Made by a program: the position numbers and the translations under genes. From NCBI GenBank assembly GCA_017621815.1, contig JAGASK010000039.1:124001-188000 (forward strand): a DNA stretch of 64,000 bases. The letters run 5' to 3'. Shown here one piece after another: positions 49,769 through 63,954 of the stretch. Each line of letters opens with the position of its first letter. The first letter of the stretch is position 1. Under the pieces are notes generated by a model. It was not told where the DNA came from. It ran no database searches and worked only from the letters and a program-made list of their open reading frames with translations. The stretch is from Lachnospiraceae bacterium (GTDB taxonomy: Bacteria > Bacillota > Clostridia > Lachnospirales > Lachnospiraceae).

Positions 49769-50953
49769 TTAATAATTCTCTTTTACAAATCTTCTGAGCG
49801 CCTCCAAAGAGCGTTCCACCTTTTCCGTATCAATGCAGTATGCCATGCGGAAATATCCGGACACACCAAAACTGTCGGAAGGCACTAGTACCAAATCATA
49901 TTTCAAAGCCTTTTTACAAAAAGCAGCTGCGTCCTCTTCTAAGGCCTTGGGGAAAATATAAAAGGTTCCGCCGGGTTTCACACAGTCAAATCCAAGGGAG
50001 GTAAGCTCCTTATATAAAATATTCATATTAGTTTCATATACACTCATATCGGATGTTATATCAAGTACCTCTGCCACTGCCAGCTGAATGATAGAGGGAG
50101 GACAGTTATGCCCGATTCCCCTTGAAATCTGCCCGCACATAGCACTGATTAATTCTGCATCCGTACATTTCGGATTTGCTGCCACATAACCGATACGTTC
50201 ACCGGGCAGAGACAGTGATTTGGAATAGGAATAACAGGACAGGGTATTGTCATAAAACTTTGATACATAAGGTGCATCAACCCCGTCAAAAACAATTTCC
50301 CTGTAAGGTTCATCGGATATAATAAAAATATCATGTCCATATTCCTTCTGTTTTCTGCTTAAAAGCTCCGCAAGGGCTTTTAATGTTTCTGTATTGTATA
50401 CAGCGCCCGAAGGGTTATTGGGAGTATTGATTAAAAGAGCTGCTGTTTTTTCATTCAGCATTTCTTCCAGTTTTTCAAAATTTATCTGAAAATTCTCCGT
50501 ATTGGCAGGAACTACCTTTAAAACGGCTCCTGTCATATTAATATAAAGATTATATTCCGGGAAATAGGGCGCAAAAGTAAGCACTTCGTCCCCGGGCTTT
50601 GTCACACAGCGCACCGCATGAGCCACTGCTCCTGCCGCACCTGTCGTGGGAAAAATATGGTTCCCTGTATAATCCATTCCGAATCTTTTATTTAAAGATT
50701 CCGCAATTTTCTCTTTTACCGATGCTATGCCAAGGCTGGGACTATAGCCGTGAAGCTCCATGGAGCTTTTGTTTTTCAGCAAGTCAATCATCGTCTCCGT
50801 AAACTTTTCCGGTACCGGTACGGATGGATTTCCGAGACTGTAATCAAACACATTTTCATAACCGATTTCTTTTCCTCTGGCTGTGGCAAATTCAGACAGC
50901 TCCCTGATAACAGATTTTCCCTTTAACATTTCCTTATATTGTTCGTTAATCAT
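49769..50953 (-). CDS. PLP-dependent aminotransferase (aspartate aminotransferase-like)
   Basis: Fold-type I aminotransferase of 394 residues, different from the one at 35694. Motifs: YSLGNPSVPVPE, HGYSPSLG, FPTTGAAGAVAHAV, NTPNNPSGAVY, IISDEPYREIVFDG, PLP Lys in SYSKSLSLPGERIGY, and GYFRMAYC near the C-terminus. Belongs to a clostridial group annotated only as PLP-dependent aminotransferase; donor and acceptor not determined. Confidence 0.92.
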   Translation of the reverse strand: MINEQYKEMLKGKSVIRELSEFATARGKEIGYENVFDYSLGNPSVPVPEKFTETMIDLLKNKSSMELHGYSPSLGIASVKEKIAESLNKRFGMDYTGNHIFPTTGAAGAVAHAVRCVTKPGDEVLTFAPYFPEYNLYINMTGAVLKVVPANTENFQINFEKLEEMLNEKTAALLINTPNNPSGAVYNTETLKALAELLSRKQKEYGHDIFIISDEPYREIVFDGVDAPYVSKFYDNTLSCYSYSKSLSLPGERIGYVAANPKCTDAELISAMCGQISRGIGHNCPPSIIQLAVAEVLDITSDMSVYETNMNILYKELTSLGFDCVKPGGTFYIFPKALEEDAAAFCKKALKYDLVLVPSDSFGVSGYFRMAYCIDTEKVERSLEALRRFVKENY

Positions 50954-51042
50954 AGCTTTCCCTCTCTTAAAAATTCATTTGCAAATAAACAGCAAGATAT
51001 AAAAAATTCCCGAATGCATTTATTGCCTAACTCACGTTTTTA

Positions 51043-51051
51043 ATTGTAGCA
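51043..51051 (-). promoter_or_regulatory. Extended -10 promoter of aminotransferase-patatin-uppP
   Basis: Minus strand TGC-TACAAT (51051-51043), an extended -10 about 90 bases upstream of the ATG at 50953; no clear -35. Confidence 0.45.
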
Positions 51052-51056
51052 TAGAA

Positions 51057-51090
51057 AAATAGCTTTGAAAATACTGCTTCAAAGCTATTT
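51057..51090 (-). terminator. Terminator at the end of the mannan operon
   Basis: AAATAGCTTTGA (51057-51068) / TCAAAGCTATTT (51079-51090) with a ten-base loop; on the minus strand it is followed by TTC after TATTT. Lies just after the GH1-PMI gene. Confidence 0.8.
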
Positions 51091-51111
51091 CTTTTTTCTA
51101 CTACAATATAA

Positions 51112-53418
51112 TTATTTCACAGAAGACGCAATCAACGTCATCTCTCCCTGCATATCCACTTCTCCGAATCCGTCCGGCAGAATAAAGTGGTCACCCTTCT
51201 TAATCATCTGTCCGTTAATCAGTCCTTCCCCTTCAATGACGCTCATAATCAGGAAAGGATGTGTCTGCTCAAAGGACACAGGCTTTGTCACCTCTAATTT
51301 CCATACCTTATAATAGTCGCAGGAAATCAGTTCGTTTAAGGTGTTTTCAGGCAGATTAAGAGCTGACTTTACGCTGTCTGCGGCAGAAGGGGCAGGCACC
51401 GTAATCACATCAATGCTCTGCTCTACATGAAGCTGGCGGGGCTTGCCGTCCGTCAGTCTGTCATAATCATAAACACGATACGTGATATCGCTGTTCTGCT
51501 GGGTCTCCAGAATCATCAGTCCGCCCTTAATGGCATGTACCGTACCGGGATTAATCTGGATAAAGTCTCCTTTTTTAACGGGAACTTCACGAATCAGTTC
51601 AGACCACCTTCCCTGATGAATCATATCCTGAAGCTCCTCTTTTGTTTTTGCATTATGTCCCACCACTAAGGATGCATTCTCGGGACAATCCAAAATATAC
51701 CAGCATTCCGTCTTACCCAGAGAACCGTTCTCATGCTCTCCGGCATAAGCGTCATCAGGATGCACCTGAATGCTTAAATCCTCCCTGGCATCAATGATTT
51801 TGATTAACAGAGGGAATCTGTCAAGCTCACTGTTTCCGAATAATTCTGGCTCTTCCTTCCAAAGCTGTGAAAGTGTCCTGCCCTCATAAATACCTTCTTT
51901 CACGGTGCAGTCGCCGTTCGGATGGGCGCTGACTGCCCAGCACTCTCCTGTTTTATCCCCGGGAATCTCATAGCCAAACTTATCCTTAAGCTGGCTTCCT
52001 CCCCAAATCATCTGTTTAAATACGGGATTCAAAAATAGAATAGGTCTCATCTTTTTATTAATGGTTAATTCCCTTCCATTGGATTCAATAATCTTCTGAT
52101 ACCAAAATGCGGAATCCTTAACAATTCTCTTCTGAGTCGTAAAGTCTACATGAACAATTCCGAATCTTTCCGTATATCCCTTATCCCATTCAAAATTATC
52201 AAGGAAGGTCCACAGGAAATAACCTCTTACATCCACACCCTCATCATTGGCTTTCTGAAGGGCTGAAATATATAAATCCAAAAAGTTCTGACGGTTCGGG
52301 TCATGAACCCTGCCGTCAAGTGAAACATCATCATGACAGGACATGCCGTTTTCCGTAATATATAAAGGCATCTGATATCTTTCATACAAGAACTTTACGC
52401 CCCAGTAAAAGCATCCCGGCGTTACCGGCCAGTTTGCAGCGGTTTTGGCAAGTCCCACCGGTCTGTCCACATATTCCGGCTCACCATCCGCACCCTGTCT
52501 CATCATGTAGCCATTGTAAATATTCTGTCCCATGAAATCAAGGGGCTGGGAAATCAGCTTCATATCTTCATCGGTAATTTCAGGCAGATACTCTGCAAAT
52601 TTTTTCAGCCCTTCTTCCGGGTATTTTCCAAGGAAAACAGGGTCATTGAACCATGCCACATTCCAGGTCCAGTTATCCATAGGCTGATAAAAGCCAAATA
52701 AAGTTTTTCTTGCCGCCTCAATGTCCTCCGGCTTATCTGTTGCAGGATATGCCATTCCGCAAGTAGGTGCATATCCTACCTTAATGGGCCTGCAGGCATA
52801 TTTTCTTAAATTAATAACAGCCTGCCCATGAGCCCGAAGTGCATTGTGGGCAATCTGAAATACATCCTTATAAGGCAGCTTCATTCCGGGAGCATGAACC
52901 CCTGACAAATGTCCCAGACCAACGAAGCACTCAGGCTCGTTTAACGTAATAAAGTACTCACAGATATCCGAAAAATTCTCAGCAACCACTCTGGCATATT
53001 CACCGAACCACTCAATGACTTCTTCATTCAGCCATCCGCCCTTGTCCTGCAGCGCCTGGGGAAACTCCCAGTGATACATGGTAATATAAGGCTCAATGCC
53101 GTTCTTTTTCATTTCCAGTATCATATCCCTGTATAAGGCAATAGCCTTCTCATTTACCTTCCCGGTTCCCTTCGGCAGGATTCTTGCCCAACTCATGGAA
53201 AAACGGTAAGCTTTAATGCCAAGCATTCTCATCAGCGCATAATCTTCTTTATACTTATGCATATGGTCGCAGGCTGTCCGGGAATCATTTCCATCCAGAA
53301 TCCTTCCTTCTTCCGTGAAGGTATCCCAGATATTTTTCCCGCATCCGTCACCTTCTTCTCTTCCTTCCACCTGATAGGCGCTGCTTGCCACACCCCATAC
53401 AAAATCATCGCGAAACAT
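51112..53418 (-). CDS. GH1 beta-glycosidase fused to mannose-6-phosphate isomerase
   Basis: One uninterrupted frame of 768 residues. Residues 1-445 are a complete GH1 barrel: WGVASSAYQVEG, acid/base Glu161 in TLNEPE, nucleophile Glu356 in YITENGM, and FLWTFLDNFEWDKGY. From about 457 (MRPILFLNPVFKQMIWGGSQL) it is a type I phosphomannose isomerase with zinc ligands Gln551 and His553 in QVHPDD, Glu571 in GKTECWY and His in NPGTVHAIKGG. The linker (about 446-456) has no RBS ahead of Met457, so a single polypeptide is expected. It would cleave beta-mannosides or beta-glucosides and convert mannose-6-phosphate to fructose-6-phosphate, both fitting the GH130/epimerase genes upstream. Last gene of the operon. 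Confidence 0.93.
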   Translation of the reverse strand: MFRDDFVWGVASSAYQVEGREEGDGCGKNIWDTFTEEGRILDGNDSRTACDHMHKYKEDYALMRMLGIKAYRFSMSWARILPKGTGKVNEKAIALYRDMILEMKKNGIEPYITMYHWEFPQALQDKGGWLNEEVIEWFGEYARVVAENFSDICEYFITLNEPECFVGLGHLSGVHAPGMKLPYKDVFQIAHNALRAHGQAVINLRKYACRPIKVGYAPTCGMAYPATDKPEDIEAARKTLFGFYQPMDNWTWNVAWFNDPVFLGKYPEEGLKKFAEYLPEITDEDMKLISQPLDFMGQNIYNGYMMRQGADGEPEYVDRPVGLAKTAANWPVTPGCFYWGVKFLYERYQMPLYITENGMSCHDDVSLDGRVHDPNRQNFLDLYISALQKANDEGVDVRGYFLWTFLDNFEWDKGYTERFGIVHVDFTTQKRIVKDSAFWYQKIIESNGRELTINKKMRPILFLNPVFKQMIWGGSQLKDKFGYEIPGDKTGECWAVSAHPNGDCTVKEGIYEGRTLSQLWKEEPELFGNSELDRFPLLIKIIDAREDLSIQVHPDDAYAGEHENGSLGKTECWYILDCPENASLVVGHNAKTKEELQDMIHQGRWSELIREVPVKKGDFIQINPGTVHAIKGGLMILETQQNSDITYRVYDYDRLTDGKPRQLHVEQSIDVITVPAPSAADSVKSALNLPENTLNELISCDYYKVWKLEVTKPVSFEQTHPFLIMSVIEGEGLINGQMIKKGDHFILPDGFGEVDMQGEMTLIASSVK

Positions 53419-53489
53419 ATTTCAAGTCCTCTCTTTCCAGTTGATGTAATTTATATGATGCCCCGCCAGCTTGCCGCAGGGCATTTAAC

Positions 53490-56400
53490 TTAAATATAAA
53501 ATTGAAACCAGTTAAAATCAAAGCAGCTTCCCGGCATAAAGATAAAGCTTAAATCGCCTTTTCCCTTCAGTCCTTCTATTTCAAATGCCTGCTCTCCATA
53601 TTCATGGTTCTCAGCCGCTTCCACCACCTGAATGCTGCTGCCGGTATCACTTACGAAACGTATCTGCACAGGATTTAAACTCTGATAAGAACGGCAGTTT
53701 AATATAATTCTGCCTGCTCCCTGCTTTCCGAAATCCATCTGCTTAAATACAAGGGAAACATTGTTTCCAATTTTCTCCACTCTGCCCTGATTGATTTCAT
53801 AGCCATCACCGTAAATAGTATCACACTGCGCAGCTTCAAGTCTGGCATAGGCCTTTTCCTGCTTTGTAAAATATATGCTCCTTAGCTGAAAACTGCAGTC
53901 AGTTGCTATATACAAAGGTATATTTCCCTTGATTCTCTTTCTCAGTTTATAGGGCTGCTCCTTGAAAACCATCCATTCAGGCACCTTATGATAAAAGCAG
54001 TCTGCCAAAAGCTCACTGCCTGCTTTTTCCGGATTACCCTCCCAAATCTGAAAAGTGACGGCATCATTGGTGTTTGCAAAAATGGAAAGCACGATTTCAT
54101 CAGTGCCGAAATCACCGAAATCAATGTCTGTAAATCCAACAACACACTGATATGTTCCCTGATTGCTGTTGTTATCACAGCCCAGGAAATTCACTCCGTG
54201 CTCTATGCCTTCCCCGGCTCTTTCTGTCCTGAATCCGCACAATCCGGCGGGTATCTCTTTATAAGGATTCAGATAAGCCTTTCCGATTCCCTCTGCGCTC
54301 ATCTCCAATTCGGAACAGACACTGACGGCAGAACCTCCGTTTCGCGAACAGCACTTAACCCTGAATTTTCCATCCCCCGAGGCCTTCACTCTTGCTCCGC
54401 CTTCAAAGGGAATAACTTCCGCGAAATTTACAGTTATGCCTGTATCATTTACAGCCTTCCACTCCAGCTCCCTGTAAGCTGCATTTTCAGGATATAACAT
54501 CACACGAATTTCCGCTTCCGGCTTTTCCTTCGTGAGAATATTGCTCCCTTTGAGCTGAAGCTCCGCTTTTCTTACCGGTATTTCCTGACATCCCTTTTCC
54601 AGTACCTGTCCTTTAGAGCCGCCTCCGTAAACAGGATATTCTTTGTTTTCTTCCGCAGCCGAAACCTCTTCTGCCCCGAAAACGCCCTCCTGCTTTTCTA
54701 CAGGAAGTGCCTGCAATGTCAGTCTGCATTCCTTACATCCGGGAGAAGTTATTATTACATTGATTTCACCTGCTTCTTTTTTACTTCCGATAATTGCCAG
54801 CAGCTTTCCCCCGAAAAGTCTTTTGCTTTTTCCTTTAAAGGCATCAAAATCCGCGCTGTCTCCATTGTCAAGGCCGATTAACCTGCCGGCCCCCCGAACC
54901 TCCACATGCATACGGTTATTGGCATTTTCCACAGGATATCCCTGTTCATCCAGTACGCTTATTTCCACAAAAATCAGCTCCTGTCCGTTCCCGTGCATTT
55001 CATATTTATCAGCAGATGCAATGATTCGAACCGCATCCGAAAAGGAATGTCTGGTCTTTCTTGCAATTTCCTTTCCCGATAAATCATAAGCTGCGGCGGT
55101 TATTTCACCTTTTTCATAAGGCACCAGCCATCTTCCTGCCTGATTTCTTCCATGAACATGGTCAATTTTATGGCGCCCCATGCTTTTTCCGTTAACAAAC
55201 AATTCCACTTCCGGCGCATTGGAGCACACCTGCACATCAATGTTCTGCCCTTCATTAAAATCCCAGTACGGAAACACATGCACCATGGGCTTTTCCCTGT
55301 AATCCGTCCATTCCGACTGAAAAATATAAAAAGAATCCTTAGGGAAGCCTGCGGTATCTATCTGACCGTAATAACTGTTTTTGGTCTCATAGGGCGTGGA
55401 TTCCCCAATATAATCAAAGCCCGTCCAGATAAACTGTCCCAGGGAAAACTCTGCATCCCTGTCATCGCAGATACAGGCTTCATAACTTGCCGCTCCCCAG
55501 CCTGTAATGCTGTTTCCAAGGGCTGAACACTGCTCATCCTCATCTGTGAGAATCGACTTTTCCAAAGGGAAATGATAAATTCCCCTGCTTGCAAGCACAG
55601 AGGCTGTCTCACTGCCGTAAATAATCCAGTCCTTATGGGTTTTATGATGTTCTTCATACAAATATTCAGAGTAATTATATCCCACGCAGTCAAGCTCTTT
55701 TGCGCATTCCTGAGGGTTCTCCCACTTCATAAAATTAGAACCCAGGGTAACAGGCGCATGATTTTTATAATCATGCTTTCTGACAGCATTTTTTAAACTC
55801 ATGGTAATTTCCAGTCCCCGCTCTTTCACAAGAGTATCCTGTATCTCATTACCGATGCTCCACATCATAAGGCTTGCATGGTTCCTGTCCCTTCTAATCC
55901 AGGAAGCCACATCTTTTTCATACCAGTCATTAAAAAATCTTGCATAGTCATATGCGGTCTTAGGTTTTTCCCACATATCAAAAGCCTCAGATACAATCAG
56001 AAAGCCCATTTCATCTGCAAGCTCCATAAATTCAGCCGCCGGCATATTATGGGAAAAGCGGACAGCGTTTACTCCCATTTCCCGCAAGTTTTTCAGCTTA
56101 CGCCTTGCCGCCTCCTTATAAAAGGCAGCCCCCAGGGCTCCCAGGTCGTGATGCTCACAGACGCCCTTTACCTTTACTTTCCTTCCGTTAAGTAAAAAAC
56201 CTTTATCCGGAAAAAATTCCATGGTACGGAAACCAATGCTTTGTTCTTCCGTTTCAAGCACTTCTTTTCCGTTTAAAAGCTGCGTGGTTACCTGATATAA
56301 ATTCCCTTTTCCGATGTCCCAAAGCGCGGGATTTATTACAGGAGCCAGGCTCTGGCTGATAATAATGCTGCCTTCTTTCAAATTATCAATGCTTTTCTCC

Positions 56401-56996
56401 TCTTCCGCTATCAGATTTCCCTGCGGGTCAGTAAGGTACTGTTTCAGAAAAAAAAGCGCTCCTTTATCTGCTTCCTTCACCAGAACCTCCGTGTCAACTT
56501 CCACACTCCAGGTATTATCCTTCAACTTTACAGGCGTAATATAAATTCCGTCAGATGCAATATGAATTTTCTTCCGTTTTTTCAACCAGACATTGCGGTA
56601 AATACCTGCCCCCGAATACCATCTGGTATTCGGTTCACGATACACGACACGTACGCAAATCAGATTTTCCCCTTTCTTCAGAAACGGCGTTATTTCCACC
56701 TCAAAGGCGGAATAACCATACTTCCACTCCCCTGCCGGATTTCCGTTAACAAACACAGCGGAATCCATGTACACGCCGTCAAACCGGAGGACAATTTCTT
56801 CCTCCTTTTCCACAATCAGCTTTTTACGGTACCAGCCAATACTGTTTCGATACAGATTATGGGTATCATAAATCATCCAGTCATGAGGAATATCCACTTT
56901 CCTCCATGATGCTTTTTCCGGCATCCGGAAGTTCTGCTCATCAAGTTCCAGCTCACAGAACTCCCAGCCGTCATTCCATAACAATTTTAAAGCCAT
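53490..56996 (-). CDS. GH2 beta-galactosidase-like enzyme with DUF4982 and C-terminal CBM-like domains
   Basis: Large GH2 of 1168 residues, no signal peptide. Sugar-binding domain (about 1-145), immunoglobulin-like domain, TIM barrel (about 265-560) with acid/base Glu384 in MMWSIGNE and nucleophile Glu463 in YGSETAS, followed by DUF4982 (about 575-660, with VELFVNGKSMGRHK) and a GH2 C-terminal domain (VENANNRMHVEVRGAGRLIGLDNGDSAD). Two further beta-sandwich, CBM6-like segments end the protein (about 930-1045 and 1050-1168). The layout is that of beta-galactosidases; galactose side chains occur on galactomannan, but those are alpha-linked, so another substrate, such as beta-galactosyl units of galactoglucomannan or xyloglucan, is possible. 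Confidence 0.88.
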   Translation of the reverse strand: MALKLLWNDGWEFCELELDEQNFRMPEKASWRKVDIPHDWMIYDTHNLYRNSIGWYRKKLIVEKEEEIVLRFDGVYMDSAVFVNGNPAGEWKYGYSAFEVEITPFLKKGENLICVRVVYREPNTRWYSGAGIYRNVWLKKRKKIHIASDGIYITPVKLKDNTWSVEVDTEVLVKEADKGALFFLKQYLTDPQGNLIAEEEKSIDNLKEGSIIISQSLAPVINPALWDIGKGNLYQVTTQLLNGKEVLETEEQSIGFRTMEFFPDKGFLLNGRKVKVKGVCEHHDLGALGAAFYKEAARRKLKNLREMGVNAVRFSHNMPAAEFMELADEMGFLIVSEAFDMWEKPKTAYDYARFFNDWYEKDVASWIRRDRNHASLMMWSIGNEIQDTLVKERGLEITMSLKNAVRKHDYKNHAPVTLGSNFMKWENPQECAKELDCVGYNYSEYLYEEHHKTHKDWIIYGSETASVLASRGIYHFPLEKSILTDEDEQCSALGNSITGWGAASYEACICDDRDAEFSLGQFIWTGFDYIGESTPYETKNSYYGQIDTAGFPKDSFYIFQSEWTDYREKPMVHVFPYWDFNEGQNIDVQVCSNAPEVELFVNGKSMGRHKIDHVHGRNQAGRWLVPYEKGEITAAAYDLSGKEIARKTRHSFSDAVRIIASADKYEMHGNGQELIFVEISVLDEQGYPVENANNRMHVEVRGAGRLIGLDNGDSADFDAFKGKSKRLFGGKLLAIIGSKKEAGEINVIITSPGCKECRLTLQALPVEKQEGVFGAEEVSAAEENKEYPVYGGGSKGQVLEKGCQEIPVRKAELQLKGSNILTKEKPEAEIRVMLYPENAAYRELEWKAVNDTGITVNFAEVIPFEGGARVKASGDGKFRVKCCSRNGGSAVSVCSELEMSAEGIGKAYLNPYKEIPAGLCGFRTERAGEGIEHGVNFLGCDNNSNQGTYQCVVGFTDIDFGDFGTDEIVLSIFANTNDAVTFQIWEGNPEKAGSELLADCFYHKVPEWMVFKEQPYKLRKRIKGNIPLYIATDCSFQLRSIYFTKQEKAYARLEAAQCDTIYGDGYEINQGRVEKIGNNVSLVFKQMDFGKQGAGRIILNCRSYQSLNPVQIRFVSDTGSSIQVVEAAENHEYGEQAFEIEGLKGKGDLSFIFMPGSCFDFNWFQFYI

Positions 56997-57019: not shown

Positions 57020-59221
57020 TTATACCTTAAATTTTTCAATGGACTCATTTAGCTGCTGCGCATCCTCTTTCAGCTTCTCTACCTCATCCTTTAAACTCTG
57101 AATAACGGAAACCTGTTCGCCCAGCGTTGCCGTAACCTCCTGGGTGGAGGCTGCCACTTCTTCGGAAACAGCCGAAATATTCTGAATGGAACCCTGCACC
57201 ATTTCTTTTTCTTCCATTATGGTTTTAAGCCGAAGGGTAATGGCACGTATGCCTTCTACCAGTTCCCCTACACAGGAATGAATTGAACCGAACACTTCTA
57301 CAGTCTGAGAAAGGGCTGCTGCCTGCTCATTGACCATCTCTTCCGCTTTCTTTGCGGAAACCGTAGTCTTATCCGTAGTGCTTCCTATGTTTTCCACGAT
57401 TTCCCGGATCCTGTTGCCTGATTCCTTGGATTGGTCGGCCAGCTTTCTGATTTCTTCTGCTACAACCGCAAAGCCTCTTCCTGCTTCGCCTGCCCTTGCG
57501 GCTTCGATGGAAGCATTCAAAGACAATAGATTGGTCTGTCCGGCAATGCTGTTAATCACATCCACGAAGCTCTTGATTTCTTCCGAGCTTTGCTGTACCG
57601 CACTGATATCTTCCACCAGTACTCTGGTAAGTGAAACCGTAGTATCTGACTTGCTGCTTAAATCCTGTACAATTACCTTTCCTTTTTCCACAGCATCAAT
57701 TGCTTTATCCGCAGCCGTACCCATATCCCCGGTTTTCTCTGTTACCGCATTGATGTTGTCGGAGAAATCCAGCATTTTCTCATTACTGGTTTCCGTGTCC
57801 TCGGCCTGGTTCTGCACACCCTTGGCAACTTCATCCATGGCAACCGCAATGTCCCCCATAGAGGTACTGACGGCTGTCGTTTTATCGGAAACATCCACAG
57901 AAAGTTCGTTTACCTTGGTGCCAAACCCTTTCATATCCAGCATCAGCGTTCTCATGCTTCCTATCATAGCATTCAGGCTGGAGGTCAGTATCTTAAACTC
58001 GTCTTCTCTCTTTGTGACAAAATCTTTTGATAAATCTCCTTCAGCTACAGCTGCAAGTCCCGTTGTCATGGATTTCACCGTTTTGCTGATACCCATGGAA
58101 ATATATGCTCCGATAGCCAAAGCTGCGCCTGCTGCTAAAATTACCATGATAATAGTAATATATTTAATCGTTCCTACCTGGCCCAAAAGATTGCTTCTGG
58201 GAATCAACGCACATATCATGGCGCCTGTTTTTCCTACGGGAGTATAAATATATACATACTTCTTACCGTTCAGCTTTACGTCCCTGCTTCCCGTTTCTTC
58301 CGCTGATTTGGACTCTTCAAAAAACGCGTTGCCAATAAAATAGGTTTCTTCTACAGGTTCTTCCTTTCCCTGAACGGACACAGTTTCCCTTCCGTCTTCC
58401 GATACCAGCGCCCTGATGCTTCCGTTTCCAAAGTCCATCTGGTCAAGCATCTCCATAGCCACGCTCATGTCAACATCCAATACAAGAACCGTATTATTCT
58501 TCAGCATTCTCTGATAAAAAACAAGGGCATATTTTTCCGGTGTGCTGTTCATATTGTCATCCAGATATGTATGATATCCCATCCACTTATTTCTTATGGA
58601 CGCATTTTCCGCAAAAAAGCTTCCTTCTGATGTTTCTGTAAAATCACTGTAGGGGTTATCCGTCATGCCGCCCGTCAGGGTTGATAAATAAGAACCTCCC
58701 TCCGGTATTACGGAACAGCTGAAAACATATTTATTAGTTGATTTCGTATTGCTGATTATGGATTTAGCACTCCGGAAAGCCTCCATTGCATCGCCATCCT
58801 GCTTCTTATAATATTTTTCATAATAATTGCCTACATCACTGTTTGTAACAAGCTCAAGCGCCTTGCCTGATATGGAATCACACACAAGATTACAGTAATT
58901 CCCCACCGCTGACACTGTAGACATGGCAGATTCTTTGTACTTGGACAGAATACCGGAAGAGGCTGTATTATAAGATACAATTCCCAGGGCAACCATTAAA
59001 ATTACCGGTACCAGAAAGCCCAAAAGAAGGGTCTGCATAATACTGCGCTTGCTGTTTCCCCTCACATCCTTTACAGCCTGCACCGTATATTTTGCATCCT
59101 GTTTCTTTTTCTTTATCTTTTTTTCAGCTTTATCCCTGACAGCTTTTTTGGCTGCCTTCTTTTCTTCTTTACTTACAACTGCCCTCTTATGATCCTTCAT
59201 TTCGTTTTTGTTTCTTGCCAT
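57020..59221 (-). CDS. Methyl-accepting chemotaxis protein
   Basis: Chemoreceptor of 733 residues. An unusual Lys-rich cytoplasmic N-terminus (about 1-60, runs such as KKIKKKK) precedes TM1 (about 63-85), an extracellular dCache-like sensor (about 86-345), TM2 (about 347-370), a HAMP domain (SMGISKTVKSMTTGLAAVAEGDLSKDF) and a signalling domain whose hairpin tip reads INSIAGQTNLLSLNASIEAARAGEAGRGFAVVAEEIRKLA. No other chemotaxis genes are nearby. Its location inside a mannan operon suggests co-expression with mannan use, and possibly taxis toward those sugars. Confidence 0.93.
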   Translation of the reverse strand: MARNKNEMKDHKRAVVSKEEKKAAKKAVRDKAEKKIKKKKQDAKYTVQAVKDVRGNSKRSIMQTLLLGFLVPVILMVALGIVSYNTASSGILSKYKESAMSTVSAVGNYCNLVCDSISGKALELVTNSDVGNYYEKYYKKQDGDAMEAFRSAKSIISNTKSTNKYVFSCSVIPEGGSYLSTLTGGMTDNPYSDFTETSEGSFFAENASIRNKWMGYHTYLDDNMNSTPEKYALVFYQRMLKNNTVLVLDVDMSVAMEMLDQMDFGNGSIRALVSEDGRETVSVQGKEEPVEETYFIGNAFFEESKSAEETGSRDVKLNGKKYVYIYTPVGKTGAMICALIPRSNLLGQVGTIKYITIIMVILAAGAALAIGAYISMGISKTVKSMTTGLAAVAEGDLSKDFVTKREDEFKILTSSLNAMIGSMRTLMLDMKGFGTKVNELSVDVSDKTTAVSTSMGDIAVAMDEVAKGVQNQAEDTETSNEKMLDFSDNINAVTEKTGDMGTAADKAIDAVEKGKVIVQDLSSKSDTTVSLTRVLVEDISAVQQSSEEIKSFVDVINSIAGQTNLLSLNASIEAARAGEAGRGFAVVAEEIRKLADQSKESGNRIREIVENIGSTTDKTTVSAKKAEEMVNEQAAALSQTVEVFGSIHSCVGELVEGIRAITLRLKTIMEEKEMVQGSIQNISAVSEEVAASTQEVTATLGEQVSVIQSLKDEVEKLKEDAQQLNESIEKFKV

Positions 59222-59281: not shown

Positions 59282-60412
59282 TTATGAATCAGAACCGATT
59301 ACCGAAACCAGATAAAACGGCACCACATCCTTATCATGAGATTCAATTATAGTGATTTCCACCGTATGTTTTCCCGGTTCCATATGTTTTGTCACAGTAT
59401 CAATATATAAACAATCTCCCCAGTCTTCATCAAAATTGCCGTCAAGTATTACAGCTTCGTTTTCCCTGCCGTCTACCACTGCCTTCGCAACGCAGGTAGG
59501 CTGTTTTACCGATTTTCTATACTGTACGGCAACACCTGTACAATCAAAGGTAAAAGTGATTTTATCTCCCGTTTTCCACGCTGTCCAGCCATTTCTGAAA
59601 ACATCCCGTATATCGCTTTGAGGCGCCTTATCTGCGGCAAAGCCTTTTGTCTCAGGTGAGGAATTAAAGTTCTGATAACGTACAGATTTCTCATAGGCAT
59701 TGGCTGTAATGGGATCAGGCAGTATTTTTCCTCCGAAGTCAAAAGGTTTTTCTTCTGTTTCAATACCCTCATAAACATCTTCAAGAAAGGCAGTAATAAC
59801 CTGAGCCACCAGCTTATGACCTGCATCATTGGGATGTAAATCATCCGGTGTAATTTCCCGATTGGGAATTCTGCCGCTTTCCACCTCAGGCCAAATCGTG
59901 CTTTTCATGCTGACCATGGGAAGTTCATAAGCCTTTGCAACCTTAAGATGCATTTCCTGGGCATTTACTCCATTGTCATACCGCACATTGTTCATCAGCA
60001 TAAGCGCCGGTGAACATTTATCACCGAGAGTCCTGCGGACAAGACCTTCATAGGTTTCCGCAAAAAACTCCGTATTATCATCATTTACCGCAAATTCTAT
60101 CAACACGAAATCAGGATTATATTTAAGCAAGTGCTCTTCTACCCTCGAAACACCAAATTGAGAAGTAGTTCCACCGATTCCCGCATTGATAAATGTGATT
60201 TCCGATTTCGGAAATTTATTTTTCCACCATTCATATACAAGATAGGCATAACATGTTTCCGGTGTGGAAGAAAGACTTCCCTGCGTGATGGAACCGCCCA
60301 GGAATCCTACTGTAATTTTTTCTCCCTGCAGTGCCTTTTTCATACATTTCTTGATACGATACCAGTTTCCCCTGTTGATCATTCCCTTTTCAGGATGTAC
60401 ATTATATGCCAT
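59282..60412 (-). CDS. SGNH acetylesterase with C-terminal CBM35-like domain (CE17-like)
   Basis: Esterase of 376 residues without signal peptide. SGNH domain (about 30-215): block I GGSITQG (Ser41), Gly79-80 in NAGIGGT, Asn110 in FAVND and Asp191-His193 in DDLHPND. From about 225 a beta-sandwich (ANAYEKSVRYQNF... GWTAWKTGDKITFTFDCTGVAVQY... PFYLVSVIG) resembles a CBM35-type module. In Roseburia intestinalis a two-domain SGNH+CBM35 esterase (CE17) removes 2-O-acetyl groups from manno-oligosaccharides; position next to GH130 genes makes the same role likely here. Follows GH130_2 after a terminator-like hairpin. Confidence 0.85.
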   Translation of the reverse strand: MAYNVHPEKGMINRGNWYRIKKCMKKALQGEKITVGFLGGSITQGSLSSTPETCYAYLVYEWWKNKFPKSEITFINAGIGGTTSQFGVSRVEEHLLKYNPDFVLIEFAVNDDNTEFFAETYEGLVRRTLGDKCSPALMLMNNVRYDNGVNAQEMHLKVAKAYELPMVSMKSTIWPEVESGRIPNREITPDDLHPNDAGHKLVAQVITAFLEDVYEGIETEEKPFDFGGKILPDPITANAYEKSVRYQNFNSSPETKGFAADKAPQSDIRDVFRNGWTAWKTGDKITFTFDCTGVAVQYRKSVKQPTCVAKAVVDGRENEAVILDGNFDEDWGDCLYIDTVTKHMEPGKHTVEITIIESHDKDVVPFYLVSVIGSDS

Positions 60413-60513: not shown

Positions 60514-61536
60514 TTATCTTCTTCCGATTTCGGTATCAGATTCTGTTACTACACTGTTCTCCTTGATATAAGCCATGATATCTTCAAACTGTGTAAATGC
60601 AAGTCCTACATAGCTGTCTGCACAACCATAATAAATAGCAATCTTTCCGCTTTCAGGGTCATGAATTGTTGCGCAGGGGAAGCACACGTTAGGAACAAAA
60701 CCTCTTTCTTCATACCATTCTTCAGGTGTCAGAAGGAAATTCTCGCATCTGTATTTAACAATAGAAGGATTCTCAAGGTCTAAGATAGCCCCTCCGATGG
60801 AGTATACAAAACCGTTGCAGGTTCCGCTTACACCGTGATAGAACAGAAGCCATCCTTCGCTGGTTTCAATAGGCGCTGCGCCGCCGCCGATTTTAACTGA
60901 CTCCCACCATTCATTACCTTTGCCCATTACATGTCTGTGCTTGCCCCAGTATACAAGGTCAGGACTTTCGCTTAAAAAGATATCGCCGAAGGGTGTATGT
61001 CCGCTGTCAGAAGGACGGCTCAGCAGCATAAAGTTTCCGTTAATCTTTCTGGGGAACAATACCGCATTTCTGTTATAAGGAATAAAAGGATTTTCAAGTC
61101 TTGTAAATGTCTTGAAATCAGTGGTTTTAGCCATACCGATTGCTGCGCCGTAAAAATCCTGACACCAGATAATATAATAGGTATCTTCTACCTTAACCAG
61201 TCTGGGGTCATATGCATATCTGGGCATGAAAGGCTTACCTTCCTCATCCACAAAAGGAATCTTTTCTTCATCGAAATCCCAGTGAATGGCATCCTTACTT
61301 CTTCCCATATAAATATAAGGAATACCGTTCGTCTGCTCACCGCGGAATACGCCGATAAACTCATCCCCATAAGGCATTACCGCACTGTTAAAAATTCTTG
61401 CAACATTTTTTACCGGATTTCTGCCGATAATGGGATTTTCCGTATATCTCCAAACAGGTGCTCCCTTAAGGTTTGCAGGTCTTTCCTGCCAGGGTACATT
61501 TTTGACTGCAGGGGCAATCATTTTAATCTCACTCAT
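60514..61536 (-). CDS. GH130_2 beta-1,4-mannooligosaccharide phosphorylase
   Basis: Phosphorylase of 340 residues with five-bladed beta-propeller. Marks: NPIIGRNPVKNVARIFNSAV, FRGEQTNG, and AYDPRLVKVEDTYY with Asp110 as the general acid; LSRPSDSGHTPFGDI and YYGCADSYVGLA are typical of subfamily 2. It removes mannose from the non-reducing end of beta-1,4-mannooligosaccharides, giving mannose-1-phosphate. Cytoplasmic. Paired with GH130_1 and the epimerase as in Ruminococcus albus and Roseburia. Confidence 0.93.
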   Translation of the reverse strand: MSEIKMIAPAVKNVPWQERPANLKGAPVWRYTENPIIGRNPVKNVARIFNSAVMPYGDEFIGVFRGEQTNGIPYIYMGRSKDAIHWDFDEEKIPFVDEEGKPFMPRYAYDPRLVKVEDTYYIIWCQDFYGAAIGMAKTTDFKTFTRLENPFIPYNRNAVLFPRKINGNFMLLSRPSDSGHTPFGDIFLSESPDLVYWGKHRHVMGKGNEWWESVKIGGGAAPIETSEGWLLFYHGVSGTCNGFVYSIGGAILDLENPSIVKYRCENFLLTPEEWYEERGFVPNVCFPCATIHDPESGKIAIYYGCADSYVGLAFTQFEDIMAYIKENSVVTESDTEIGRR

Positions 61537-61585: not shown

Positions 61586-62761
61586 TTACTGCCGGGCTAA
61601 GAACTCCAGATTCTTCTTAATCAAATCACATCTTTGCGCTACACACTCTACACTTCTTAAGGGGTCTTCAGGTGTATTAAAGACATAATCAATTAATTTG
61701 TCTATTGTAGTAGTTGCTACATGCATTCTTGTATCGCTGGAAGCATAATAAATAAATACTTCACCTTTTTCATTTGCAACAGCGCCGTTAGTAAATACTA
61801 CATTGGATACATCTCCTACCCTTTCACCGCCTCTGGGTCCGATAAGAAGTCCTGAAGGCTCTGCAATCACCCTGGAAGGGTCATTTAAATCCGTTGCGAA
61901 AGCATATATTACATAACGAAGACCTGCAGCGGTATTTCTTACACCATGCGCAATATGAATCCAGCCCTTTTCCGTCTTAATAGGTACTGCTCCTGCACCG
62001 TTCTTAGCCTCTGTAATCGTATGATACTTACGAAGGCTTGTCATTTTTTCCTCATCAATTACGGCATGTGTAATATCATCGCAAAGTCCGAAACCAATTC
62101 CTCCGCCTGAACCTGTCTCGATAAAATCATCCATAGGTCTTGTGTAGAAAGCATATTTACCGTTTACAAATTCCGGATGAAGCACTACATTTCTCTGCTG
62201 GGGAGAATTCAGGGTAACAAGATTGGGAAGCCTTTCCCATGTCTTTAAATCCTTTGTTCTTACAATTCCTGCCGCTGCCACTGCCGCAGACAAATCATTA
62301 ACGGAGGTATCCTTGCTTTCAGAACAGAACACACCGTAAATATATCCATCCTCATGCTTAGTCAGACGCATATCATAAACATTGGTTTCCTCCGGGCAGG
62401 TATCAGGAAGCAGAATAGGGTAATCCCAGAAACGGAAACCGTCCACACCGTTATCGCTTTCTGCCACCCCGAAGAAAGACTTACGGTCATCTCCTTCAAT
62501 TCTGGCTACCAGATAATATTTTCCGTTAAGTTCAATGGCGCCTGAATTCATTACTGCATTAATGCCCAGTCTTTTCATAAAATAAGGATTGGTTTCAGGG
62601 TTCAAATCATACTGCCATGTAAGCGGAATATGCTCCCTTGTAAGCACCGGATATTTATATTTGTCATATACGCCGTTATAAAAATCCGTGTCCACTTCAT
62701 TTTTTCTGTTAATCAGAGCTTCATATTTTTTGAGCTCTTCCGTATATTTCTTATGCAACAT
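61586..62761 (-). CDS. GH130_1 4-O-beta-D-mannosyl-D-glucose phosphorylase
   Basis: Phosphorylase of 391 residues. The sequence follows Bacteroides fragilis MGP and R. albus RaMP1: [30 protein letters not shown], and [17 protein letters not shown] with general acid Asp130 (Asp131 in BfMGP), plus [18 protein letters not shown] and [15 protein letters not shown]. It converts mannosyl-beta-1,4-glucose and phosphate to mannose-1-phosphate and glucose, acting after the epimerase. RBS GAAAGAGG. Cytoplasmic. Confidence 0.95.
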
Positions 62762-62790: not shown

Positions 62791-63954
62791 TCAGCTTCTC
62801 CTTATCACCTCAAAACACATTCTACCATTATGGTAAGGACATTTCCAGGGTTCTACAATAGGTCTTCCCTCAAAAGGCTTTCCTTTTGCATCCACCTCCC
62901 AGAACCATTCTGAGCCGTTTCTCTTATCAATTACATGTTCTCTGATAAAATTCCATTCGGCCTTGGCCGCTTCCAGATATTCCGGTTTATCGGGATTTTT
63001 CTGCCAGCCGTTTAAGAAACCTACTACAGTCTCCGCCTGTACCCACCAGATACGGTGAGTATTTACCACTCCCTTTTCGCACTCATTAGCAAGGGAATGT
63101 CCGTCAAAAGCCACCTTATAAATCTGAGCCGTCAAATCCTTTGTAATAGGCGTCATTTTTTCTTCATACTTCTTTTCGCCTAAAATTTCCACGCCCCTGT
63201 CAATCAGCCATGCGGTTTCAATATCATGTCCATAGGAATGTAAATCAATAATGGAGTTCATATTGGCATCAAAAAACACTTCCTGTCTGTGGAGCACCGG
63301 ATTATATACTTTATCTGCAAAAGTATCCATAATCCATTTAAGCCTTTCTTTTACCTCCGGCATTCCCGACACTCTGTAAAGCTCCGTATAGGCTTCAAAT
63401 ACATGGAGCAGAGTATTCATTGTTTTTTCTGCAATAACACCGTTTTCAGAAAGCTTATCATTTTCAATTTCATGAAATCCCTTGTCAAAGGCTTCCTTAT
63501 AACCGATTTCATCGGTACATTTTGTTTCAATAATGCGAAACAGTTCCTTTGCCATGGAAAGCGCCTCTTCATCTCCCGATGCTTCATAATAGGAGGAAAG
63601 AGCATAGATGGAAAAGGCCTGATTATAAGTGTGTTTAGTAGTATCCTCCGGCTCACCGTTATATTTAATTGACCAGTAAATACCGCCGTTTTCTTTATCC
63701 ATGCAATGCTCTTTCATGAAGGCAAATCCATGTTTTGCTTCTTCTAAAAGACTTTCATCCTTTAAAAGTGTATAAGCATTGGAGAAGAACCATGTAATTC
63801 GGCTGTTTAAAATGCATCCCTTCACTGCCTTTTTATCCAGCTTAAGGTCATAATCCATCCATCCATAGTAGCCGCCAAATTCATCATCCCTTAATGCTTT
63901 CCAAAAAGGAATAATGTTTTCTGTCAAATGAGACCTTATTTCTTCTACCATCAT
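62791..63954 (-). CDS. Cellobiose/mannobiose 2-epimerase (AGE family)
   Basis: Epimerase of 387 residues with (alpha/alpha)6 barrel. Catalytic His243 in LHSYGHDIETAWL and His375 in WKCPYHNGRMCFEV match the two essential His of R. albus cellobiose 2-epimerase (243 and 374); NTHRIWWVQAETVVGF is also conserved. It converts mannobiose to mannosyl-beta-1,4-glucose, the substrate of the adjoining GH130_1 enzyme. Start: ATG at 63954, with AGGAG eight bases upstream; the next codon is also ATG. Confidence 0.94.
   Translation of the reverse strand: MMVEEIRSHLTENIIPFWKALRDDEFGGYYGWMDYDLKLDKKAVKGCILNSRITWFFSNAYTLLKDESLLEEAKHGFAFMKEHCMDKENGGIYWSIKYNGEPEDTTKHTYNQAFSIYALSSYYEASGDEEALSMAKELFRIIETKCTDEIGYKEAFDKGFHEIENDKLSENGVIAEKTMNTLLHVFEAYTELYRVSGMPEVKERLKWIMDTFADKVYNPVLHRQEVFFDANMNSIIDLHSYGHDIETAWLIDRGVEILGEKKYEEKMTPITKDLTAQIYKVAFDGHSLANECEKGVVNTHRIWWVQAETVVGFLNGWQKNPDKPEYLEAAKAEWNFIREHVIDKRNGSEWFWEVDAKGKPFEGRPIVEPWKCPYHNGRMCFEVIRRS

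Follow-up and report, generated by a model that had tools for sequence, protein, structure and literature searches.

A family 1 glycoside hydrolase fused in frame to a class I phosphomannose isomerase at the end of a predicted beta-mannan operon in Lachnospiraceae

In this work, we followed up by computation a gene that lies in a 64,000-nucleotide stretch of DNA from a gut bacterium of the Lachnospiraceae (the window, by which we mean the whole stretch that was analysed). At positions 51112 to 53418 the minus strand carries a single open reading frame (ORF) with an ATG start, 768 codons for amino acids and zero internal stops. The initial annotation, which gave no strand, had claimed a 768-residue frame with an intact glycoside hydrolase family 1 (GH1) enzyme and an intact phosphomannose isomerase (PMI), and the ORF, Pfam and NCBIfam bear this out. 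The gene, its parts and its neighbours are as follows.

51112..53418, minus strand: fused GH1-PMI gene, 768 aa (ORF, Pfam and NCBIfam)
52066..53415, minus strand: GH1 domain, residues 2-451, with Glu161 at 52936-52938 and Glu356 at 52351-52353
52048..52065, minus strand: linker, residues 452-457, ending in Met457, with no Shine-Dalgarno-like run upstream of Met457
51115..52047, minus strand: class I PMI domain, residues 458-768 (Pfam, NCBIfam and solved-structure match)
49769..50953, minus strand: aminotransferase, in the genus often found downstream of PMI, fused or not
53490..56996, minus strand: GH2 family enzyme, 1168 aa (Pfam)
57020..59221, minus strand: methyl-accepting chemotaxis protein (MCPsignal, HAMP), inside the predicted mannan operon
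59282..60412, minus strand: SGNH/GDSL esterase, given the working label CE2 but without CE2_N by Pfam; we presume it to be CE17-like
60514..61536, minus strand: GH130 mannoside phosphorylase, 340 aa (Pfam, NCBIfam)
61586..62761, minus strand: GH130 phosphorylase, 391 aa (Pfam, NCBIfam), which we take to be probably of the mannosylglucose type
62791..63954, minus strand: cellobiose/mannobiose 2-epimerase-like protein (best NCBIfam match EpiA, below its cut-off)

Pfam matches on the 768-residue protein comprise GH1 (residues 2-448), PMI_typeI_cat (462-559) and MPI_cupin_dom (697-766), with only about six residues at the domain join. The N-terminal half matches the GH1 profile over its full length (463.5 bits against a Pfam cut-off of 22.6) with both catalytic glutamates present, which places it in family GH1, and it passes the NCBIfam model for GH1 beta-glucosidases (BGL, TIGR03356; 493 bits against 478.5). 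The C-terminal half passes the model for class I mannose-6-phosphate isomerases (manA, TIGR00218; 232.7 bits against 116.2), and its best solved match, among the best 60 of 195 chains, is the stand-alone class I mannose-6-phosphate isomerase PDB 1qwr (residues 460-766), presumably from Bacillus subtilis. The motifs that had been pointed out were all found where they had been placed, that is, TLNEP (Glu161), ITENG (Glu356), QVHPDD at 551, TECWY at 570 and GTVHAI at 625. The metal-ligand residues of the PMI half, Q551, H553, E571 and H628, which we take to bind zinc, are all present and are invariant wherever they are aligned among the fused proteins. With GH1 followed by a class I PMI in one frame, the protein has the architecture of the published RiGH1 (discussed below) and is a genuine fusion of a complete GH1 and a complete class I PMI.

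Assembly error, frameshift or chance can be ruled out as the source of this frame, because ten other genomes of the genus carry the fusion uninterrupted at 84-92% identity; the stop or frameshift near 52050 that the initial annotation had kept in view is not there. Within the genus, 11 of 37 genomes (source genome included) have the whole fusion, 13 an unfused PMI (67-85% identity), 10 distant PMIs only (∼40-44%) and 3 no PMI match, so that the expectation of GH1 and ManA as normally separate proteins is not supported, at least in this genus. Across the family, the fusion is a minority arrangement, found in one frame in 11 of 250 genomes (source genome included; by our tally each genome represents a different genus) and, additionally, in two overlapping pieces on two contigs of genome G042. 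In the class sample it occurs in only 4 of 391 genomes, all of the same family; none was found outside the family in these 391 genomes at E values up to 1e-80, and none among the 70 genomes searched of one other Clostridia family. A second collection overlaps in part with the first genome set; of its best 79 loci, 66 have both domains in a single ORF, counting ORFs that are broken or cut by contig ends. Carriers include Roseburia hominis An869 (locus L043), R. faecis M72, R. inulinivorans DSM 16841, Kineothrix alysoides and Mobilisporobacter senegalensis, and two fused copies labelled Ruminococcus sp. (L027) and Bacillus sp. (L051) group with Lachnospiraceae copies in our trees. The draft copy of R. 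inulinivorans DSM 16841 has a frame break near residue 520 (L099:11551-11563), either a sequencing error or a true break. In the source genome (completeness 91.55%), the fusion is the only GH1 match and also the only type I PMI (PF20511) match.

Judged by gene content, the fusion appears to end a beta-mannan utilisation operon, as had been proposed. Past the window, in the same upstream direction, follow two ABC permeases (one of them Pfam-tested), a solute-binding protein, AraC-type and LacI-type regulators, and two GH36-like alpha-galactosidases (Melibiase). The phosphomannomutase that had not been seen here is probably encoded elsewhere in the genome, where a gene with PGM/PMM domains on another contig (G000:C26:23389-25089) is 61% identical to a mannan-operon copy. 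Of 66 loci, 56 have the esterase near the fusion, 31 a GH130 or epimerase (21 of 35 among loci with full flanks) and 1 a relative of the GH2 enzyme. A close GH130 (at least 79% identity) is present in 21 of 22 genomes with the fusion and in 20 of 34 where PMI is unfused (Fisher p 0.002), where the choice of genomes was ours, the test ignores relatedness and the 79% line was fixed after the data had been seen (at 69%, the unfused count is 23 of 34). Mobilisporobacter (G135) is without a close GH130, its best match being 39%, which together with the 31 of 66 loci means that the link to mannan is not universal. The parts also occur unfused: one operon (L209) has epimerase, GH130, esterases, GH1, a PGM/PMM gene and PMI all as separate genes, and four mannan operons of the same genus (L104, L107, L109 and L111) have no GH1 at this place, though other GH1 genes (57-58% identity) lie elsewhere in, for example, the genomes of L104 (G001) and L107 (G027). 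In G008 this place has neither the mannan genes nor GH1, with PMI immediately framed by the flanking genes, and a different contig carries a GH130 at 81%. Scanning 50900-53700 for promoters and terminators gave 13 promoter-like sites against 5.7 expected, a result that was set aside as evidence.

Fusions of this kind have already been published in Roseburia, with a measured PMI activity in R. intestinalis (PMC6385246) and a protein name in R. hominis (PMC9784577). La Rosa et al. (2019) described RiGH1 (ROSINTL182_05469/70) of R. intestinalis L1-82, which like the fusion studied here has 768 residues, an N-terminal GH1, a C-terminal PMI and a place in a mannan locus (MULL), and for which PMI activity was measured; its locus also has phosphomutase and GH113 genes (PMC6385246), whereas the probable mutase here is on another contig. 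As reported there, RiGH1 was divided into residues 1-246 (D1), inactive on the substrates tried, including G4, M4, M5, M6P, G6P and F6P, and residues 247-768, active as PMI, which fits because this piece holds the whole PMI domain (PMC6385246). RhGH1-M6P from a manno-oligosaccharide locus of R. hominis A2-183 was named a bifunctional GH1 and Man6P isomerase in 2022, the two parts that are joined here; the copy of strain An869 is in our sample as L043, and the available text of its paper yielded no assay of it (PMC9784577). FpGH1 from a mannan locus of Faecalibacterium prausnitzii is likened to the fusion solely through the term "GH1 isomerase" applied to it (PMC8262883). The boundary used for RiGH1 was placed on the window as follows.

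52680..52681, minus strand: where the D1/D2 cut of RiGH1 (residues 246/247) would fall, within GH1, by transferred numbering

The numbering was carried over from the R. intestinalis protein on the grounds of equal length and a nearly gap-free GH1 alignment of relatives. So placed, the published cut would fall inside GH1, between the acid/base Glu161 and the nucleophile Glu356, and the inactivity of D1 would therefore say nothing about the intact GH1 half.

The best-scoring solved GH1 match (phmmer) is the beta-glucosidase Ks5A7 (PDB 9l0q; 547 bits over residues 2-451), which, unlike the fusion, is a stand-alone enzyme of 452 residues, from a metagenome, and has catalytic Glu163 and Glu357 equivalent to Glu161 and Glu356 here (PMC4468940). 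Its published description reports no activity on pNP-beta-mannopyranoside and loss of pNP-glucoside activity when either catalytic glutamate is replaced by glutamine (PMC4468940). Because Ks5A7 is inactive on the beta-mannoside and the BGL cut-off is passed, the GH1 half is likelier to be a beta-glucosidase than a beta-mannosidase. A 6-phospho-beta-glycosidase was considered and rejected, as the best such model scores 300.1 against a cut-off of 610 and five other 6-phospho models fall far below theirs. No assay of an intact GH1 half was found in the open literature searched, a scope that leaves most subscription papers outside.

For conservation, we aligned 76 fused proteins with that of the window (77 in all), drawn from 98 ORFs after removal of open-ended, identical and the window's own sequences. 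All 75 proteins that cover the first catalytic position have Glu161, which L087 and L090 do not cover, and 76 of 77 have Glu356, the exception being a lysine in L052. Glu410/Trp411, which we take to bind a non-phosphorylated sugar, are present in all 77. Identity to the window averages 77.1% for the GH1 half and 72.3% for the PMI half, GH1 being the better conserved in 65 of 74 proteins. Against ten congeners, dN/dS was 0.012-0.046 for GH1 (7 finite values) and 0.035-0.069 for PMI (9 finite values); these ratios are rough because all dS values are ∼1.5 or above (saturated), and they indicate purifying selection on both halves. The L090 copy (L090:10001-11947, Lachnospiraceae bacterium A4) has an intact PMI and lacks ∼107 residues of its GH1 half (about 100-206), Glu161 included; misassembly may be the source of this internal deletion.

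Taken as a whole, the locus is best explained, with a probability of about 0.72, by a bifunctional protein of beta-glucosidase-type GH1 and PMI that arose by a GH1-manA join in a mannan operon. On this account, which starts from the observed frame, domains, catalytic residues, conservation and operon, a single and presumably cytoplasmic protein would carry in its N-terminal half an intact retaining exo-beta-glycosidase, most likely a beta-glucosidase, that may act on gluco-manno-oligosaccharides or cello-type disaccharides brought in by the mannan system and trim off their terminal beta-glucosyl units. The C-terminal half would be the cell's class I PMI and convert Man6P to Fru6P; this Man6P could be made from free mannose by a kinase, or from Man1P by a phosphomannomutase whose gene lies elsewhere. 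That this half serves a later step of the mannose-phosphate branch, as the initial annotation had it, is supported by analogy with the PMI activity of the R. intestinalis homologue (PMC6385246). GH1, as the last gene of the mannan operon, may have been joined in frame, by read-through, to a manA just downstream, and the gain would most likely be joint expression at fixed stoichiometry, not substrate channelling. Against this account stand the count of only 31 of 66 loci with GH130 or epimerase near the fusion, the lack of a close GH130 in Mobilisporobacter, the mannan operons of the genus that have no GH1 at this place, the two fused copies with a lost or replaced catalytic glutamate (L090 and L052), and the two GH3 beta-glucosidases that R. 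intestinalis (PMC6385246) and F. prausnitzii (PMC8262883) are reported to have for the proposed task.

The history of the join was approached through trees of PMI and GH1 domains, from which PMI matches below ∼280 residues, GH1 matches below ∼400 residues and identical sequences were dropped. Fused and unfused copies are intermixed among 119 PMI domains, and among 135 GH1 domains the fused copies are mostly together. In a more careful tree of 47 PMIs, all but one of 24 fused copies fall in a clade of 30 (23 fused, 7 unfused; support 99/96). The nesting of unfused PMIs inside the fused clade, from which the direction is read, suggests repeated loss of GH1, and the PMI half appears to be the resident gene. 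In Mobilisporobacter, the fused PMI forms a pair with an unfused PMI of G135 (100/100); the two are 74.6% identical, whereas the closest of the other fused copies reaches 63.8%. This suggests that the fusion arose separately there, though gene conversion may also have produced the pairing. A single clade of fused PMIs was rejected (AU p 3e-47, with 24 of 77 fused sequences used and the bootstrap not settled), and most of this rejection can be attributed to GH1 loss within one fused clade. Candidate GH1 remnants before unfused PMIs (L098, L103 and L104; matches from about residues 419-442) looked by eye like other upstream sequence, not GH1.

Other joins were seen among the same families. The same GH1 lineage is joined in frame to a CE2-type esterase, not to PMI, in L084:10001-12415 and L086:10001-12421; PMI is fused to GH5 in L188:4797-7268 (823 aa), to a ROK-family kinase in L171:5193-7046 (beside an unfused GH1) and L190:4580-6457, and to PHP in L187; and L197 has a GH1-GH5 fusion. 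A wider reading, which we offer tentatively and regard as somewhat doubtful, is that PMI has repeatedly served as a fusion partner in Clostridia that use mannan: GH1 would have joined the resident manA at least twice, separately in Mobilisporobacter, as the same GH1 lineage joined a CE2 esterase and PMI joined GH5, ROK kinase and PHP; the intact GH1 would be an active glycosidase whose role in mannan use was overlooked because the published construct cut its barrel, and in some lineages an internal ribosome site would also give free PMI.

The initial annotation had suggested, as one possibility, a GH1 half that acts, as beta-mannosidase or mannosyl-glucose hydrolase, on the same sugars as the GH130 phosphorylases. 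The gene's place inside the mannan operon speaks for this, as do unfused GH1 relatives near a PGM/PMM gene and PMI (L209) or beside the PMI-ROK gene (L171), but we consider it unlikely, given the inactivity of Ks5A7 on pNP-beta-mannoside, the passed BGL model and the R. intestinalis GH130 pair and epimerase, which are reported already to use manno-oligosaccharides, mannobiose and mannosyl-glucose (PMC6385246).

We also consider it unlikely that some lineages make a separate PMI, in addition to the fusion or in its place, from an internal start of translation close to the junction. Of 76 fused genes, 29 have at the junction a start codon preceded by a Shine-Dalgarno-like run of at least 5 bases, compared to 2.0% of 7033 random stretches of those genes and 10.8 of 76 expected when the protein is fixed and codons are shuffled; in R. 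hominis An869, GGAAGGAG lies 7 bases ahead of an in-frame ATG. Yet ATG, GTG or TTG is absent at residues 447-461 in 19 of 76 genes, and weighting by 29 clusters (80% identity) brings the count to 4.1, where 1.5 would be expected. Only a few lineages account for the excess, because 23 of the 29 clusters show no such start. As for the separate translation from Met457 that had been raised, the best run before this codon in the window is 1 base and position 457 is Met in only 7 of 77 fused proteins. Since junction starts are concentrated in few lineages and absent before Met457, we favour one product in the source genome, with a second product possible elsewhere.

That the GH1 half is a vestigial, inactive passenger, as the published D1 result (residues 1-246 inactive; PMC6385246), the fused copy without residues ∼100-206 and the copy with Glu356 as Lys might suggest, is highly improbable: D1 is without the nucleophile, Ks5A7 loses its pNP-glucoside activity if either glutamate becomes glutamine, and the GH1 half, which is the better conserved of the two, shows strong purifying selection. 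The channelling of sugar from GH1 to PMI that had been suggested fits the chemistry poorly. A GH1 of the non-6-phospho type releases neutral sugar and PMI uses Man6P, with a kinase or a phosphorylase-plus-mutase step between, and because this phosphorylation step separates the two reactions, and the 6-phospho-glycosidase models stay far below cut-off and Glu410/Trp411 are kept in 77 of 77, direct channelling is very unlikely despite a join of only ∼6 residues.

These data correct a published domain boundary in a well-studied mannan pathway of the gut; new here are the cut-site analysis, the sole GH1 and type I PMI in a genome, PMI as the apparent resident, the selection on both halves and the preference for a beta-glucosidase. 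They tie a central-metabolism enzyme, apparently the genome's only type I PMI, to a facultative sugar operon; in related bacteria the fusion seems to have been lost repeatedly and, at least once, gained independently. In 14 of 19 genus loci, an aminotransferase similar to that of the window follows fused or unfused PMI within 211 bp; in 4 it is 2-4.4 kb off, and in 1 none is seen. Of 66 loci, 16, R. hominis L043 among them, have a chemotaxis receptor gene similar to that of the window (at least 30% identity) near the fusion.
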